From Roseivirga seohaensis (GTDB lineage: Bacteria; Bacteroidota; Bacteroidia; Cytophagales; Cyclobacteriaceae), in the NCBI RefSeq assembly GCF_001592945.1, contig NZ_LRPB01000002.1:1-64000 (forward strand): a DNA stretch of 64,000 bases, in the 5' to 3' direction. The notes beneath the pieces were generated by a model. That model searched no databases and was not told the DNA's origin. It saw only the letters and a program-made list of their open reading frames with translations. Below, piece after piece: positions 7,213 through 11,407 of the stretch (position 1 is the first letter of the stretch; each line of letters begins with the position of its first letter). The position numbers and the translations under genes were made by a program.

Positions 7213-7867
7213 TCATTACCTAGAGCACACCAACCTTAAGCCAACCATTACCGCAAACGACATTGATCGATTGGTGGCTGAGGCCAAAGAACACCAGTTG
7301 TTTGGGATTTGTGTTCCTCCGTTTTGGGTGAAGAAGGCCGCTAGAGAAATTGGTACTGCCGACATTCAGTTGGTAACGGTGATTGGTTTTCCTTTAGGTT
7401 ACCAAATGACAGAAACCAAAGTAACCGAGATTGAAAAAGCCATTGAAAACGGTGCCAATGAACTGGATATTGTCATGAACATTTCGGCTTTTAAAACAGG
7501 CTTGCCTTGGACGAAAATAGAACTCGCCAAGTGTGCTAAAATTATCCACGAGGCCGATTGCCTGATGAAGGTGATTATTGAAACATCTTATTTGACCAAT
7601 GAAGAAATTGTATTGGCCTCTAAACTCTGTGCCGATGCTGGAACCGACTTTGTAAAAACCTCTACGGGTTTTTCTAATGCTGGCGCAAAAGTAGAACACA
7701 TCAAACTGATGCGTAGAAGTTTACCCTCGAACGTAGGCTTAAAAGCTTCTGGAGGCATTAAAACCTTGGCAGATGCTCAAGCCCTTATTAATGCCGGAGC
7801 CGATAGATTAGGCGTTTCCTCCGCAGTTGCCATTATGGAAGAATACTATGCAAGCCAAAAGAATTAA
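7202..7867 (+). CDS. deoC: Deoxyribose-phosphate aldolase
   Basis: Class I aldolase that cleaves 2-deoxyribose-5-phosphate to glyceraldehyde-3-phosphate and acetaldehyde in deoxynucleoside salvage. The 221-residue TIM barrel shows ANELDIVMNISAFK, the Schiff-base strand LMKVIIETSYL, FVKTSTGFSNAGAKVEH and GLKASGGIKTL with its conserved lysine. It overlaps the preceding gene by 11 bases and the following acyP by 20 bases, so the three form a tight operon. Confidence 0.96.
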   Translation: MNINHYLEHTNLKPTITANDIDRLVAEAKEHQLFGICVPPFWVKKAAREIGTADIQLVTVIGFPLGYQMTETKVTEIEKAIENGANELDIVMNISAFKTGLPWTKIELAKCAKIIHEADCLMKVIIETSYLTNEEIVLASKLCADAGTDFVKTSTGFSNAGAKVEHIKLMRRSLPSNVGLKASGGIKTLADAQALINAGADRLGVSSAVAIMEEYYASQKN

Positions 7868-8117
7868 GGTAACAGGTAAAGTTCAAGGTGTCTATTTTCG
7901 AGCTTCAACCCAAGAGCAAGCAAAGCAACTTGGCATCAAAGGTTGGTGTAAGAATGAATCAGACGGATCTGTTTTAATTATAGCCGAGGGTTCTGAAGAA
8001 AACTTAAATGCTTTGGTGAGCTGGTGCCATCATGGCCCCTCCAATGCCAGCGTTGAAAATGTACTCGTAGAAAGTATTGTAGTGAGTGGATTTGAGGGGT
8101 TCGAAATAAAGCGATAA
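7848..8117 (+). CDS. acyP: Acylphosphatase
   Basis: Small enzyme (89 residues) hydrolysing acyl-phosphates. The signature KVQGVYFR places the catalytic arginine at residue 18, and GWCKNESDGSV places the catalytic asparagine at residue 36. The ATG at 7848 inside deoC is preferred over the earlier in-frame ATG at 7827, because family members start directly before the first beta strand. Its last 16 bases (8102-8117) recur exactly at 10790-10805 on the far side of an accessory block, so acyP appears to have been the insertion point. Confidence 0.95.
   Translation: MQAKRIKVTGKVQGVYFRASTQEQAKQLGIKGWCKNESDGSVLIIAEGSEENLNALVSWCHHGPSNASVENVLVESIVVSGFEGFEIKR
8102..8117. repeat. Left copy of a 16-bp direct repeat bounding an accessory block
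   Basis: CGAAATAAAGCGATAA, the last codons of acyP including its stop, is repeated without mismatch at 10790-10805. Just downstream both copies also run into CGCGC (8126-8130 and 10812-10816). This is the left boundary, attL-like or duplication-like, of the 8.1-10.8 kb insert. Confidence 0.75.
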
Positions 8118-8140
8118 ACTTCCTCCGCGCACTAGTCGTG

Positions 8141-8234
8141 GCGCCTCATTGCGCCTCTTTGAAATTCAAACTCTTTTGTCTAGCGTTGAGGTAAGCACCA
8201 GTTACCGCAGTGGGAAGTGAGTGCTAGTGGGAAA
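8141..8234 (-). repeat. Cassette-like repeat, copy 1
   Basis: This 94-base segment aligns with 9625-9719 at roughly three quarters identity by eye. The best-preserved part is TTTGTCTAGCGTTGAGG, preceded by a TTTGAA/TTCAAA inverted pair. It lies 3 bases beyond the stop of the minus-strand PIN-like gene. A 7-mer direct repeat GCGCCTC-att-GCGCCTC is at its left edge. The position (immediately 3' of a gene, same orientation as copy 2) is what a recombination site attached to a gene cassette would show. Confidence 0.7.
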
Positions 8235-8237
8235 TAA

Positions 8238-9083
8238 CTAAGTAAGCCGATTAGGCTTAGAGCCTGTTATGAGCAGATTATTTAACTCCTCTTTCAGTTT
8301 GCCTATATTCTTTCTCTTGCAAGTTCTTATTAGCGTTGATTTAGAACCAAAGTAATCAAATAAGAATTTTGATTTGTTGTAGCACTTATTGTCATTTGTT
8401 ATAAAGGCATGGCACAAGGAACCGTAAGCCGAATGGTTAGCATCATTTTTTAGGTTCTCAAAATTGCCTTTCTCCTTCATCGAATCTGGATAAAAGGAAA
8501 TCAGATCTAGGGCTGTGTATGCGGTATAGTAGTAATCTATATATGATAACTTATCATATCGACTACCACGTAGTTCCAATCCTTTCTTCAGGAAATTTTC
8601 TAGAGAGTCAGAGAGCTTTGCCTCCCTAATCATCTTGTCTAAATCAAGTACTTTATAGTTACATATTTTCGTCACATCTATGTTGAGGTGAGGTTGAATT
8701 ACGCCATCTCTAATTTGTCCATATCTGTTCGTAACAAGTTTTCTTAACCACTCGAAGAATCCCAGAACGAATCCCGAGTTGTTTTTAAGGTTAGAATGGA
8801 AAAATTCGGTTGGATCACGATTATCCAAGATGACTTTTTCTGACCCCCAATAACTTACGATACAAATGTTATTAGTCATTCGAGACAAGTGCAGAAGATC
8901 TTTTTGCAATTCGATTCTTTTACCACTACTTGTTTCACTCAGATCATCCAAGTGAGAGGAAGAATAAACCAACTGAATTTTATCTGAGTTAGCTTGGAGA
9001 AATGAATTTAATATCAAATGCGGCTCCAACTTTGGTTGTTTAAGAATCGAGTAGAGATTCCAATCTAAATAAACCCTAATCAT
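8238..9083 (-). CDS. PIN-like domain nuclease, putative toxin
   Basis: 281 residues, no signal peptide. The N-terminus VYLDWNLYSIL places an acidic residue at D7. A second acidic patch HLDDLSE lies near 46-50. The end of the domain has NDANHSAYGSLCHAFITND (D214, H217, D231). This spacing of acidic residues on hydrophobic strands is typical of PIN-like metal-dependent ribonucleases, and the DANH/ITND block is the clearest part. Its start overlaps the end of the 124-residue upstream gene by 4 bases (ATGA), indicating translational coupling. A toxin role is inferred from fold, pairing and location in an accessory block. Confidence 0.62.
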   Translation of the reverse strand: MIRVYLDWNLYSILKQPKLEPHLILNSFLQANSDKIQLVYSSSHLDDLSETSSGKRIELQKDLLHLSRMTNNICIVSYWGSEKVILDNRDPTEFFHSNLKNNSGFVLGFFEWLRKLVTNRYGQIRDGVIQPHLNIDVTKICNYKVLDLDKMIREAKLSDSLENFLKKGLELRGSRYDKLSYIDYYYTAYTALDLISFYPDSMKEKGNFENLKNDANHSAYGSLCHAFITNDNKCYNKSKFLFDYFGSKSTLIRTCKRKNIGKLKEELNNLLITGSKPNRLT

Positions 9084-9454
9084 TCATTTAGCGGTTGAGG
9101 TGGCCCTGCATTACCTATCAAATTACCTCCATGTTTCACTAGTGAAAATAGTCGTTCAACCGTCCAGCTGAGCTCGTCTTGGTTGCAATGATATTCACTA
9201 ATCACTCCGTAAACACTGTAAGTTGAAATGTTAAAGCCTTCTTCAATATCGTTGTACCAAATAATGTATTTACCACAAATAGCAACTACCCAAAATCCAC
9301 TACCCTCAATTCCATAAATCGGTTCTTTCCACTTGGACGGACTTACTTTAATCAACTCCCAGAAGTTCGAAAGTTCACCGTTTAGATCAAGTTCGGTTTT
9401 CTGTATCTCATTATAAAGTTCAACTTCAGATATTGGTGTCCAATCTATATTCAT
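9080..9454 (-). CDS. Small acidic protein paired with the PIN-like gene
   Basis: 124 residues with tryptophan- and glycine-rich strands (EGSGFWVVAICGKYIIWYND, HCNQDELSW). I recall similar orphan proteins of unknown role scattered through Bacteroidota accessory regions, but I cannot name a family. It precedes the PIN-like gene with a 4-base overlap, the usual order for an antitoxin or immunity partner. It shows no DNA-binding motif that I can see. Function unknown. Confidence 0.6.
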   Translation of the reverse strand: MNIDWTPISEVELYNEIQKTELDLNGELSNFWELIKVSPSKWKEPIYGIEGSGFWVVAICGKYIIWYNDIEEGFNISTYSVYGVISEYHCNQDELSWTVERLFSLVKHGGNLIGNAGPPQPLNE

Positions 9455-9479
9455 TGCAGTATTTGCTCATAACGTTATG

Positions 9480-9535
9480 TAACGCGCACTTTTATGCACG
9501 ATATATTTTCAATAGTTTATTGAAAGTGCGCGTTA
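9480..9535. repeat. attC-like 13-bp inverted repeat with 30-base loop
   Basis: TAACGCGCACTTT (9480-9492) and AAAGTGCGCGTTA (9523-9535) are perfect inverted copies. Their outer ends read GTAAC and GTTAG, as the outer core sites of integron attC sites do in form. The loop holds a second possible stem, TTTCAAT/ATTGAAA. The right core GTTAGCA departs from the GTTRRRY consensus at its last two bases, so it is not a classical attC. It lies between copy 2 of the cassette repeat and the 124-residue gene. Confidence 0.5.
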
Positions 9536-9624
9536 GCAATTATCCTATGGACATGATAACGTGGACTCCTAAGTTACATATTCAGTTTTTATCTTGTTTA
9601 TTGGTGACTGTATTTTTCAGGCGG

Positions 9625-9719
9625 GCGTCTCGTTGCGACTCTTTGAGATTCAAACTCTTTGTCTAGCGTTGAGGCAAACGTTAGTTAAGGTGGTGTGCAA
9701 GTTAATGCTAAGGGAAATT
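9625..9719 (-). repeat. Cassette-like repeat, copy 2
   Basis: Related to 8141-8234, sharing the CTCTTTGA.ATTCAAACTC palindrome-like start and TTTGTCTAGCGTTGAGG. It ends 18 bases beyond the stop of the minus-strand lipoprotein gene, the same gene-to-repeat arrangement as copy 1. The half nearest the gene is more diverged than the distal half. Confidence 0.7.
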
Positions 9720-9737
9720 GTACATTGCTACTTGCGG

Positions 9738-10427
9738 TTATTTACTCTTAAATTTCACCAATTCTGGTCTTATTACAATTGTTTCTTTTTTTCGAGGAAA
9801 TCTGCCGTGTTCAAAAATCAGTTCAACACTACTGTCGTACTTTTTCAATGATTTCACATCAACATCATAAAAGTCGGAAACCACAAATGTCTTATTTTTA
9901 TAACCCAATTCTGTTGGTTGAATTAATATATGTATATCAGTTTTAGAGTTTTCTGTTTCCAGAGGCAAACGTTGTCCGTTATAAAAAGTCATTACTCTAA
10001 CATAAAAGTTGTCACCATATTCTGATTCAACTTGATCAAAATCCCGAAGAATTGATTCAAATTCTGAATCTGTGGTTTGTGTGATTTCTGATGTATGTTG
10101 ATAAACAAAAAAATTATCAGAGATATCTAAAGTGTCTGTAAAATCCTTTTTATCAATTAATTTTCGTTCTCCACTTTTTAATCTTTCAGCAACGTTGATC
10201 TCAGAACCTGAGCTTTCAACAAAAAGATAATAGTCTGATGATTGCTGATTTGTTGGGGTTGGTTTTAATTCTTTTTCTAGTTGTTTAACTTGGTTTTGCA
10301 ATTCAACAACTTGCTTTTGTTTGTCAGCAAGTTCTTCGCTCATTTTCTCTAATTCCGATGAAGTTTGCTCTGAATTACAACTTGTGATTAAAATCAATGT
10401 TAATATGAGTAATGCAATGCTTTTCAT
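9738..10427 (-). CDS. Small lipoprotein with N-terminal coiled coil
   Basis: 229 residues from the ATG at 10427. This start is chosen over the more distal ATG at 10478 because it begins a clean lipoprotein signal, MKSIALLILTLILITSC, with a lipobox cysteine at residue 17. A heptad-rich coiled coil follows (about 24-55, EELADKQKQVVELQNQ), then a beta-rich region without a recognised domain. Likely outer-membrane or periplasm-facing. Part of the inserted block, with its own cassette-like repeat 3' of it. Function unknown. Confidence 0.65.
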   Translation of the reverse strand: MKSIALLILTLILITSCNSEQTSSELEKMSEELADKQKQVVELQNQVKQLEKELKPTPTNQQSSDYYLFVESSGSEINVAERLKSGERKLIDKKDFTDTLDISDNFFVYQHTSEITQTTDSEFESILRDFDQVESEYGDNFYVRVMTFYNGQRLPLETENSKTDIHILIQPTELGYKNKTFVVSDFYDVDVKSLKKYDSSVELIFEHGRFPRKKETIVIRPELVKFKSK

Positions 10428-10577
10428 GATTGTAGTAAACATTATGTATGCGTCATCTCGGTGGTGTATGTATCTCATGTAATTTATAAAAACTTCGATA
10501 TAGAATGCATATAATAATGTTTATGAAGTTGGTTGGTGGTATATTTTCAATAATCTGCTGTCAATTGCAGAATTATA

Positions 10578-10677
10578 AACCGTTAAAACGGTTCTGAGCG
10601 AGCAGTCCAAAACATAGCCCACGGTTTAAACCGTGGGCTATGTGTGAGAATGTTTATCTGTAATGGTTTTAACCATT
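10578..10677. repeat. Cluster of three REP-type palindromes
   Basis: Three palindromes in 100 bases: 10578-10593 (7-bp arms AACCGTT/AACGGTT, 2-base centre), 10612-10643 (a perfect 32-bp palindrome, arms ACATAGCCCACGGTTT and its complement with no spacer), and 10662-10677 (7-bp arms AATGGTT/AACCATT, 2-base centre). The layout resembles repetitive extragenic palindromes mobilised by IS200-like (RAYT) transposases in Bacteroidota; none is encoded here. Confidence 0.65.
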
Positions 10678-10789
10678 TTCCGCCAGAAGGAGGTATTAAA
10701 TCCTCTATGAAATTCAAAGCCCTAAGGCTGCTAAAAGCTAATGTTAGCCACTGGTTCAGTACTTAGGAATAGTAATGGATTAAATTCAG

Positions 10790-10805
10790 CGAAATAAAGC
10801 GATAA
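10790..10805. repeat. Right copy of the 16-bp boundary repeat
   Basis: Identical to the last 16 bases of acyP (8102-8117). It lies 4 bases from the stop of the minus-strand gene beginning at 10810 and marks the right edge of the inserted block. Confidence 0.75.
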
Positions 10806-10809
10806 GTCT

Positions 10810-11259
10810 TTACGCGCTTTTACTCTCGTATTTTTGAATGCCTTTGTATTTGTAAATTTTAAGGCCGAAGTGTTCGTAGATACAAACCTTCATTCTGTTT
10901 TGGGCCAGTTCCAATCTTCGCTCTGGCGAATGTAAAACGGTCAATTCTAAACCTGCTAAAATAAAGTTTTTCTTAAGGCATAGTTCAGTCAAATAAGCCT
11001 GAAAGCCTGCTTTCCAGTCATCCAAATATTTGTCGTAATGGCTTCTTCCGTCAAACAGTAACTCTAACTGATTTCCTTCAGCCTGATAGCGGTAAATACC
11101 AGCTAAGTTGGTGTATAATTCATCAAAAAAGGAAAGGTCGGAGGGTTCAAAATTCTCGACTTTTTCAGAGAGGTCGTCTATCAGCCTTAAGGGATTAAAC
11201 AAGTTGAAATAACCTTGCTTAATCTGAGTCACAAGTTCTACCTGAAGGCTATGCTTCAT
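10810..11259 (-). CDS. Unrecognised soluble protein
   Basis: 149 residues from the ATG at 11259 (MKHSLQVELVTQIKQGYF), preceded by AAGAAG 4 bases upstream. The frame stays open back to 11400, but that longer form would read through the terminator hairpin of the upstream peptidase gene, and a TATTTTTG box sits at 11335-11342, so the shorter form is preferred. The protein is helical with many charged and aromatic residues and has no signal peptide. I do not recognise the family. Before the accessory insertion it would have been convergent with acyP. Confidence 0.6.
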   Translation of the reverse strand: MKHSLQVELVTQIKQGYFNLFNPLRLIDDLSEKVENFEPSDLSFFDELYTNLAGIYRYQAEGNQLELLFDGRSHYDKYLDDWKAGFQAYLTELCLKKNFILAGLELTVLHSPERRLELAQNRMKVCIYEHFGLKIYKYKGIQKYESKSA

Positions 11260-11374
11260 GTCTTCTTGTACCTGTTTAAGGATGTAGTTTTTGTCGAGAA
11301 GAAAAAGTCTCTGGTTCAAAGGGAGTAATTTTGACAAAAATAATACTTTTTCTAAAATGATTGTCGGAAAACTT

Positions 11375-11407
11375 AAATAAGGTGGCTTTGTTGAGGCCAC
11401 CTTATTT
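11375..11407 (-). terminator. Terminator of the M14 peptidase gene
   Basis: Perfect 12-bp stem AAATAAGGTGGC/GCCACCTTATTT with a 9-base loop, starting 19 bases beyond the stop of the peptidase gene. On the minus strand it continues into a T-rich TTATTTAAGTTTT tract. Confidence 0.7.

Follow-up and report, generated by a model that had tools for sequence, protein, structure and literature searches.

The acyP/dn slot and its occupants

The window, i.e., the first 64,000 nucleotides of contig NZ_LRPB01000002.1 of Roseivirga seohaensis (assembly GCF_001592945.1), contains a block of accessory DNA inserted between two convergent genes, acyP, which encodes an acylphosphatase, and dn, the gene at 10,810. 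The insert carries genes for proteins of 281, 124, and 229 aa, the last 44 nt of an integrase gene, an attachment-like site P, a related site Y, and dispersed repeats (Table 1). It is bounded by two exact copies of a 16-mer, CGAAATAAAGCGATAA, which lie 2688 bp apart from start to start, and the left copy is made up of the final 16 bases of acyP including its stop codon. Here we consider how the insert arose, and whether part of it belongs to an integron-like system dispersed over the chromosome.

The junction between acyP and dn was compared among 19 Roseivirga genomes, the window genome included. The two genes abut in 10 of them, and the slot is filled in three, namely the window genome (G000), R. 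ehrenbergii KMM 6017 (G004), and R. echinicomitans KMM 6058 (G014). One genome (G011) has a geneless spacer of about 185 bp and five are without an acyP match; G010, in which the acyP match ends early, was counted as abutting by reading. In the five genomes without an acyP match (G001, G002, G008, G013, and G017) deoC lies beside dn, and because acyP is missing from the junction in this many of the 19 genomes, the gene itself seems to come and go at the deoC-dn junction. Outside the genus, acyP was found beside dn in Fulvivirga sediminis and Shiella aurantiaca (80 loci from named genomes). On the simplest reading of these comparisons the uninterrupted state would be ancestral, and a single insertion would have taken place before the three filled species split. 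A sequence-only reading of the window had proposed an accessory insertion that spares acyP, and both the empty sites in relatives and the duplicated acyP end agree with this. A recombinant block around dn in R. echinicomitans, where dn is 76% identical, was considered and rejected, as sliding identity changed gradually and no sharp block was seen.

The cargo is different in each filled species, and so is the gene that adjoins acyP. In R. ehrenbergii the slot holds a SIR2-like gene (Pfam SIR2_2, 1.1e-6), also matched by the PADLOC SIR2 models, together with a gene for a six-bladed beta-propeller; in R. echinicomitans it holds a 260-aa gene and the propeller gene. The propeller gene is absent from the window insert. 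As positions 10,748–10,789 match the DNA upstream of it in the other two species, the window lineage has probably lost it. The genes now present in the window are rare in the order: the 281-aa gene was found in 13, the 124-aa gene in 15, and the lipoprotein gene in 10 of 390 genomes, the window genome counted each time. The 281-aa protein had no match in Pfam or PADLOC, and the only PADLOC match to the window cargo was a weak one, of PbeC to the lipoprotein (E 0.012). Structure prediction without alignments gave unusable models of the 281-aa and 124-aa proteins (mean predicted local distance difference test, pLDDT, of 37.3 and 42.9). No integrase was recognised among the open reading frames (ORFs) of the inserts of the three species.

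Table 1. Features of the acyP/dn region (window positions)
Feature	Position	Strand	Remarks
acyP (acylphosphatase), left flank, intact	7,851–8,117	+	Pfam PF00708, 1.3e-25
Left 16-mer copy, 3' end of acyP	8,102–8,117	+	Sequence identity
Left-edge DNA	8,118–8,167		Common to R. ehrenbergii (81% in last block); unaligned with R. echinicomitans
Dispersed hairpin repeat X, copy 1	8,140–8,220		At 3' side of 281-aa gene
281-aa protein	8,238–9,083	-	PIN-like N-terminus, by reading only
124-aa protein, function unassigned	9,080–9,454	-	Overlaps 281-aa gene
Attachment-like site P	9,463–9,573	-	Arms 9,480–9,492/9,523–9,535; core AACGTT 9,471–9,476
Vestigial XerA/IntI-like integrase tail	9,574–9,617	-	44 nt: the 13 final codons plus stop, one base extra
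Dispersed hairpin repeat X, copy 2	9,624–9,718
229-aa putative lipoprotein	9,738–10,427	-	Lipobox by reading; weak sub-cut-off DivIC (coiled-coil) match
Site Y	10,435–10,502	-	Directly upstream of lipoprotein gene
Multicopy REP-like hairpin Z	10,574–10,680		Inverted repeat 10,603–10,652
Remnant of older insert	10,748–10,789		Corresponds to DNA upstream of beta-propeller gene in R. ehrenbergii and R. echinicomitans
Right 16-mer copy	10,790–10,805	+	Sequence identity
Right copy of duplicated acyP/dn junction	10,791–10,826	+	36-bp alignment to R. echinicomitans left end
dn, right flank, conserved 196-aa protein	10,810–11,400	-	No Pfam match; present in 19/19 genus genomes

The duplicated junction

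The 16-mer is rare. The 15-mer GAAATAAAGCGATAA, i.e., its last 15 bases, has only two sites with at most one mismatch in the 4.15-Mb genome, and these are the two insert edges; the reversed pattern had no genome match. Within the window the edge copies are the only exact matches to the 16-mer, while at up to three mismatches there are three matches against 1.18 expected, a number that is reached by 10 of 100 shuffles. By reading, both copies lead into CGCGC, and the end of dn at 10,810 fits the earlier statement that excision between the repeats would leave acyP and dn 4 bp apart.

The sequence-only reading was correct in finding the 16-mer exact, but the duplicated block is longer. The left end of the R. 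echinicomitans insert aligns with the right end of the window insert over 36 bp, of which 30 are identical, and a score as high was reached by none of 2000 random pairs of 100-mers. Because this alignment covers both the acyP end and the dn end, the whole junction (about 36 bp) was duplicated, and not the acyP tail alone. In R. echinicomitans the DNA past the acyP stop is still similar to the dn end, and a dyad, AAAGCG/CGCTTT, lies within the junction. The score of the window's own left and right pair was reached by one of 2000 random pairs. For R. ehrenbergii the corresponding pair does no better than chance (150 of 2000), and its right copy is therefore recognised only via the other two species. 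Compared to the acyP end of its own genome, the right copy agrees at 12 of 16 positions in R. ehrenbergii (by reading) and at 13 of 16 in R. echinicomitans. All three filled genomes thus hold a right-hand copy, with differing divergence; by this comparison the duplication appears to predate the split of the three species, and the perfect 16/16 match in the window is partly fortuitous.

A target gene that is spared, a junction duplicated at both edges, the dyad within it and the empty sites in relatives would all suit a site-specific integrative element that used the acyP end or the acyP/dn junction as attB and later lost its integrase, so that the 36-bp repeats are attL and attR. This was also the suggestion of the sequence-only reading, which had further proposed a search for other blocks bounded by the same 16-mer. 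The search returned no second pair bounding another block in the three filled genomes, only a lone additional match to the 15-mer with one mismatch in each of R. ehrenbergii and R. echinicomitans, and this weakens the 16-mer as an att site. Since the repeat is not reused, the cargo differs between species, the only trace of an integrase is a 44-nt tail in the middle of the insert, and insertions at unrelated targets have left duplications of 26, 37, 116, and 154 bp, such an element is an improbable source of the insert.

Insertion scars and repeats elsewhere in the genomes

These duplications emerged from a comparison of syntenic stretches of the three filled genomes (the pairs had 70, 145, 121, and 224 kb in aligned blocks of at least 400 bp, and no partner was found for contig C33 of the window genome). 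The one of 116 bp consists of the lptD end and surrounds a nucleotidyltransferase/HepT-like gene pair. Further overlaps at insertions were 3, 11, and 11 bp long, others of 12–135 bp lay beside gaps of 154–229 bp, and overlaps of 81–255 bp in a row of paralogues were set aside. Many other insertions replaced 2–110 bp or more without duplication. Other scans added single cases: in the window genome a duplication of 111 bp (84%) at a gene for 3-hydroxyacyl-CoA dehydrogenase, in R. echinicomitans one of 84 bp (89%) at a 169-aa gene, and in R. ehrenbergii one of about 118 bp at a YceI junction, around a Y1_Tnp gene. The acyP scar is probably one of several insertion scars of variable length rather than a dedicated att site. 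On contig C6 of the window genome (L240, 6228–7195) the nucleotidyltransferase/HepT-like pair (102 and 113 aa) is inserted behind lptD, and after it the lptD 3' end is repeated (152 bp, 87%); in the two relatives this end is single.

The repeats X, Y, and Z of the insert are all found elsewhere in the genome. Z matches at 12 other places of the window genome, and X has one side that faces a gene 3' end in 16 of 17 readable copies. Rfam gave only sub-threshold matches, which were to Acido-Lenti-1 and lay over the Z hairpin. As Z and X resemble repetitive extragenic palindromes (REP), it might be asked whether the insertion, together with the duplication of the terminator-like junction, was the work of a REP-associated tyrosine transposase (RAYT; an HUH transposase). 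Two loci lend themselves to this idea. In R. ehrenbergii (L247, 10898–11889) a RAYT-like Y1_Tnp gene (Pfam, 3.4e-6) lies between inverted V hairpins inside a duplicated convergent junction, and the direct duplication (about 118 bp) includes a terminator-like hairpin, which is unexpected for relatives of IS200/IS605. On contig C2 of the window genome, at about 89.7–91.2 kb (L249), a RAYT-like ORF of 177 aa, 34% identical to that of L247 and unmatched in Pfam, occurs within a set of near-identical tandem REP/terminator units, beside a gene of 475 aa. Against this, only two loci of this kind were seen, the insert contains no RAYT ORF, and in the stretches searched a RAYT query matched only L247 and contig C2 near 90.4 kb. 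Relatives of IS200/IS605 are moreover stated to make no larger target duplications (PMC2817692). It is therefore hard to credit a RAYT with the insertion, and we give this origin little probability.

An integrase remnant and its adjoining site

The sequence-only reading had found no recombinase inside the insert. This holds for ORFs, but the insert does contain the tail of an integrase gene, situated mid-insert and not at an edge, with a hairpin site adjoining it. The tail is identical to the 3' end of an R. echinicomitans integrase in 38 of 44 columns. Site P, the core of which is 16 nt away from the 124-aa gene's start, is identical to the DNA directly 3' of the same integrase in 92 of 111 columns. 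Taken together, window positions 9,463–9,617 align with the last 43 nt of the integrase and the DNA behind it with 130 of 155 columns identical; the score is 102, and 500 block shuffles gave no more than 25.3. For the coding tail by itself, which is the best 80-bp tile of the window, the score is 30.5 and the maximum over 1000 shuffles 18.0. Because of the 155-column alignment the insert is taken to hold, in this order, the end of an integrase gene, site P, and the 124-aa and 281-aa genes. The window genome has a related integrase in decayed form, and R. echinicomitans has one with an open frame: its contig C2 carries a 355-aa tyrosine recombinase (Phage_integrase, 6.2e-41), immediately behind which come a hairpin and a same-strand HNH gene.

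An ACGTT[AG] core was found behind seven of nine integrase genes or remnants of the genus with readable downstream DNA, and in five of these seven it is preceded by an exact stem of at least 6 (G006 C63, at a contig end, and G007 C59 were left out of the count). Read by eye, the cores AACGTTGGG, AACGTTAGC, AACGTTGTA, and AACGTTATG partially fit the attC consensus boxes RYYYAAC/GTTRRRY. Whole integrase proteins score 194.1–212.5 with TIGR02249, the model for IntI with its additional domain, for which the cut-off is 265, and the better matches are interrupted at roughly positions 181 to 239 of the model. A canonical integron integrase was sought in the genus; none lay over the cut-off, and several partial matches were obtained, the R. 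echinicomitans integrase on contig C2 among them. NF040815 (cut-off 220) is just passed by the integrases of R. echinicomitans (220.6), R. spongicola (220.5), and G006 (225.9), while that of G007 (C61) falls below it (203.7).

Site Y and its polarity

Site Y is present in eight copies in the window genome, 15 in R. echinicomitans, and nine in R. ehrenbergii. Four other genomes of the genus have one to three copies each (one of them strong, in G006), and 12 of the 19 have none; at a stricter setting (E 1e-4 and stricter filters) Y was found in only three of the 390 genomes of the order, namely the three filled ones of this genus. Y is polar. Among the 27 copies examined of the 32 in the three genomes, an ORF of at least 60 aa starts within -20 to +120 nt on the gene side of 24, and on the other side of two. 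One same-strand cassette array with sites was seen, in R. echinicomitans between lptD and lysRS, where five Y copies lie on one strand within 4.4 kb, each before a same-strand ORF; the window genome and R. ehrenbergii have other genes in this slot. The accessory genes of the R. echinicomitans slot (L237, 7126–13400) run from lptD to lysRS on one strand, and Y and V hairpins lie between several of them.

A sharp breakpoint was seen at a slot beside carB (slot B), where the window genome and R. ehrenbergii are 86% identical in the 200 bp before the Y core and 48% in the 200 bp after it, and where the genes behind Y encode 252 and 471 aa, respectively. At two further slots the contrast at the Y core was weaker (71 against 51% and 74 against 50%). 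When a Y model was run over 144 kb of integrase loci, its two top matches fell at decayed integrases: one (E 4.4e-4) lies over the 3' end of a decayed R. ehrenbergii integrase, and the other (E 0.0016) just behind a decayed integrase of the window genome. Because of these two matches, Y appears to be tied to the same recombinase family as P. In the window genome (contig C33, 2538–3006; L255) the decayed integrase lies beside a tex-like gene and is followed by the Y-like site. The corresponding tex slot of R. ehrenbergii (L325) contains a further copy of a decayed integrase, along with a Y-like site and a gene of 263 aa.

A proposed refilling of the slot, and its alternatives

The explanation that we find moderately probable is that an old insertion slot was later refilled, in part, with cassettes of a divergent and dispersed integron-like system; as part of this explanation, and with the same degree of confidence, the acyP/dn junction is regarded as a slot between two convergent genes that tolerates insertions. 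In a first step, supported by comparison, an insertion in the common ancestor of the three species would have duplicated about 31–36 bp of the junction, leaving each flank with a complete gene end. Second, the cargo would have been replaced, and comparison reveals that about 40 bp of the old insert remain beside dn in the window. Third, a decapitated integron-like unit, made up of the integrase tail, site P, and a two-gene cassette, would have come to occupy the insert, and site Y, a relative of P, would have another cassette behind it. For this unit homology is evident, and its function is what we infer. Most likely a tyrosine recombinase of the XerA/IntI-like family put the cassettes in place, working in trans on the cores of P and Y. 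Fourth, the 36-bp duplication would not have been made by this recombinase; it would be one of several target duplications, variable in length, that illegitimate or template-switching insertion has left. The insertion, the duplication, the exchange of cargo, the homology of integrase tail and site, the polarity of Y, and one sharp breakpoint are seen by comparing genome sequences, and it is by extension from them that the sites would be recombined by the integrase and the cassettes would have arrived in this manner. The 36-bp duplication and the REP-like X and Z lie outside what the integron-like model explains.

Much of this could also be accounted for by an ordinary hotspot of accessory genes, formed by illegitimate recombination between convergent genes and by homologous recombination at X, Y, and Z. 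The integrase tail and P would then have been carried in as a passenger, and Y would serve as a mobile promoter or leader rather than for recombination. X, Y, and Z are indeed repeated elsewhere, X faces gene 3' ends, and Y sits immediately before start codons, where a promoter or leader is expected. Identity up to Y and none beyond could equally result from homologous exchange inside a shared Y, and a generic scan for sites is hardly enriched. On the other hand Y-like DNA is the best match in the integrase loci, at or behind two decayed integrases, the tail and P are collinear over 155 bp with an open integrase and the DNA downstream of it, and Y precedes successive genes in a same-strand array. 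We consider such a hotspot unlikely, as a whole and in its account of the tail, P, and Y alike, though a more serious competitor than an integrative element or a RAYT.

Several observations weigh against the refilling of the slot by integron-like cassettes. Compared directly, P and the window's own copy of Y resemble each other no more than shuffled sequences do (10.5 against 13.8), and the link between them runs via a better-preserved Y (22.0 against 17.0 in shuffles). By eye, no such site was seen in the stretches upstream of cargo homologues in other genera. A scan of 1.5 Mb with a hairpin-AACGTT consensus was hardly above controls: a hairpin precedes four of 222 AACGTT[AG] sites, and two of the four also have an ORF start, one of them being P itself, while with 14 control cores 56 of 5929 sites have a hairpin and 17 of these also an ORF start. 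The TIGR02249 cut-off was reached in none of the 19 genus genomes, the integrase sites of G015 and the window genome are without an exact stem, and no core lies behind the integrases G006 C4 and G007 C61. The SIR2 and propeller genes of R. ehrenbergii are, by reading, without Y upstream. Isolated cassettes have a site upstream and none was found downstream, unlike cassettes that consist of a gene and attC. A scan for duplicated 3' ends gave 19 of 721 ORFs against 11, 7, and 13 in controls that used 5' ends, a random partner (three of the seven being full-length 100% matches at the same place), and the ORF's own upstream DNA, respectively; because the scan is near its controls and includes tandem paralogues, no preference for 3' ends is claimed. 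No recombination, excision, or circle was observed, and R1 is a sequence-only model.

It is tempting to go further and speculate, tentatively and on less than even terms, that Roseivirga and perhaps other Bacteroidota possess an undescribed integron-like class, with a XerA-type integrase without the middle segment of IntI, a site made of a variable hairpin plus AACGTT directly behind it, and accessory genes that carry such a site at their 5' side and insert chromosome-wide. If true, the genome itself would be the cassette array. This may also explain why integrases without attC were all that an earlier survey found in Bacteroidetes. Cassettes outside arrays would offer a testable case, for which the orthologous slots of three sequenced species supply before-and-after pairs from nature. 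As for the acyP duplication, it is the modest scar of one old insertion.

Comparison with known systems

Integrons have been noted in this phylum. According to the IntegronFinder 2.0 paper (PMC9024848), nothing but In0 had previously been seen in Bacteroidetes, and Salinibacter ruber is added; two other papers record intI genes in the Bacteroidetes/Chlorobi group (PMC2426708) and list Bacteroidota among the phyla with integrons (PMC8618304). Titles and abstract openings from the literature on integrons in Bacteroidetes, Flavobacteria, or Cytophaga contained no description of sites such as those reported here.

The insert may be set beside four known arrangements. The first is the genomic island that integrates at the 3' end of a gene. 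Here too the target gene is spared and a short direct repeat lies at both edges, but the insert is without its own integrase, the repeat is not reused, and the cargo is swapped between species. The second is the XerA-type recombinase family represented by NF040815 ('site-specific tyrosine recombinase/integron integrase'), to which three of the four integrases scanned belong by score (220.5–225.9). The three differ in carrying about 80–95 extra N-terminal residues before the matched part, and integrases here are adjoined by an accessory gene and a hairpin-type site.

The third is the entry of integron cassettes at attG sites, away from the platform, which Loot et al. are said to have described in 2024. 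The likeness is that cassettes here, too, occupy many places on the chromosome remote from a platform; the difference is that their insertion is deduced by comparison of natural Bacteroidota genomes and would involve a divergent integrase. The fourth, and closest, comprises integrons and clusters of attC sites lacking integron-integrases (CALIN). Shared with these are a tyrosine recombinase gene with an adjoining hairpin-type site, accessory genes with related sites, one same-strand array (R. echinicomitans), and the decay of the integrase with retention of cassettes in two genomes. In contrast, the integrase lies below the TIGR02249 cut-off and is without the middle segment of that model, and in R. 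echinicomitans, R. ehrenbergii, and G010 it is co-directional with the gene that follows the site. The sites lie just upstream of genes, many of them isolated and scattered, and their core is AACGTT as opposed to the attC consensus. Because of the outcome with TIGR02249 the system is filed as integron-like and not as an integron.

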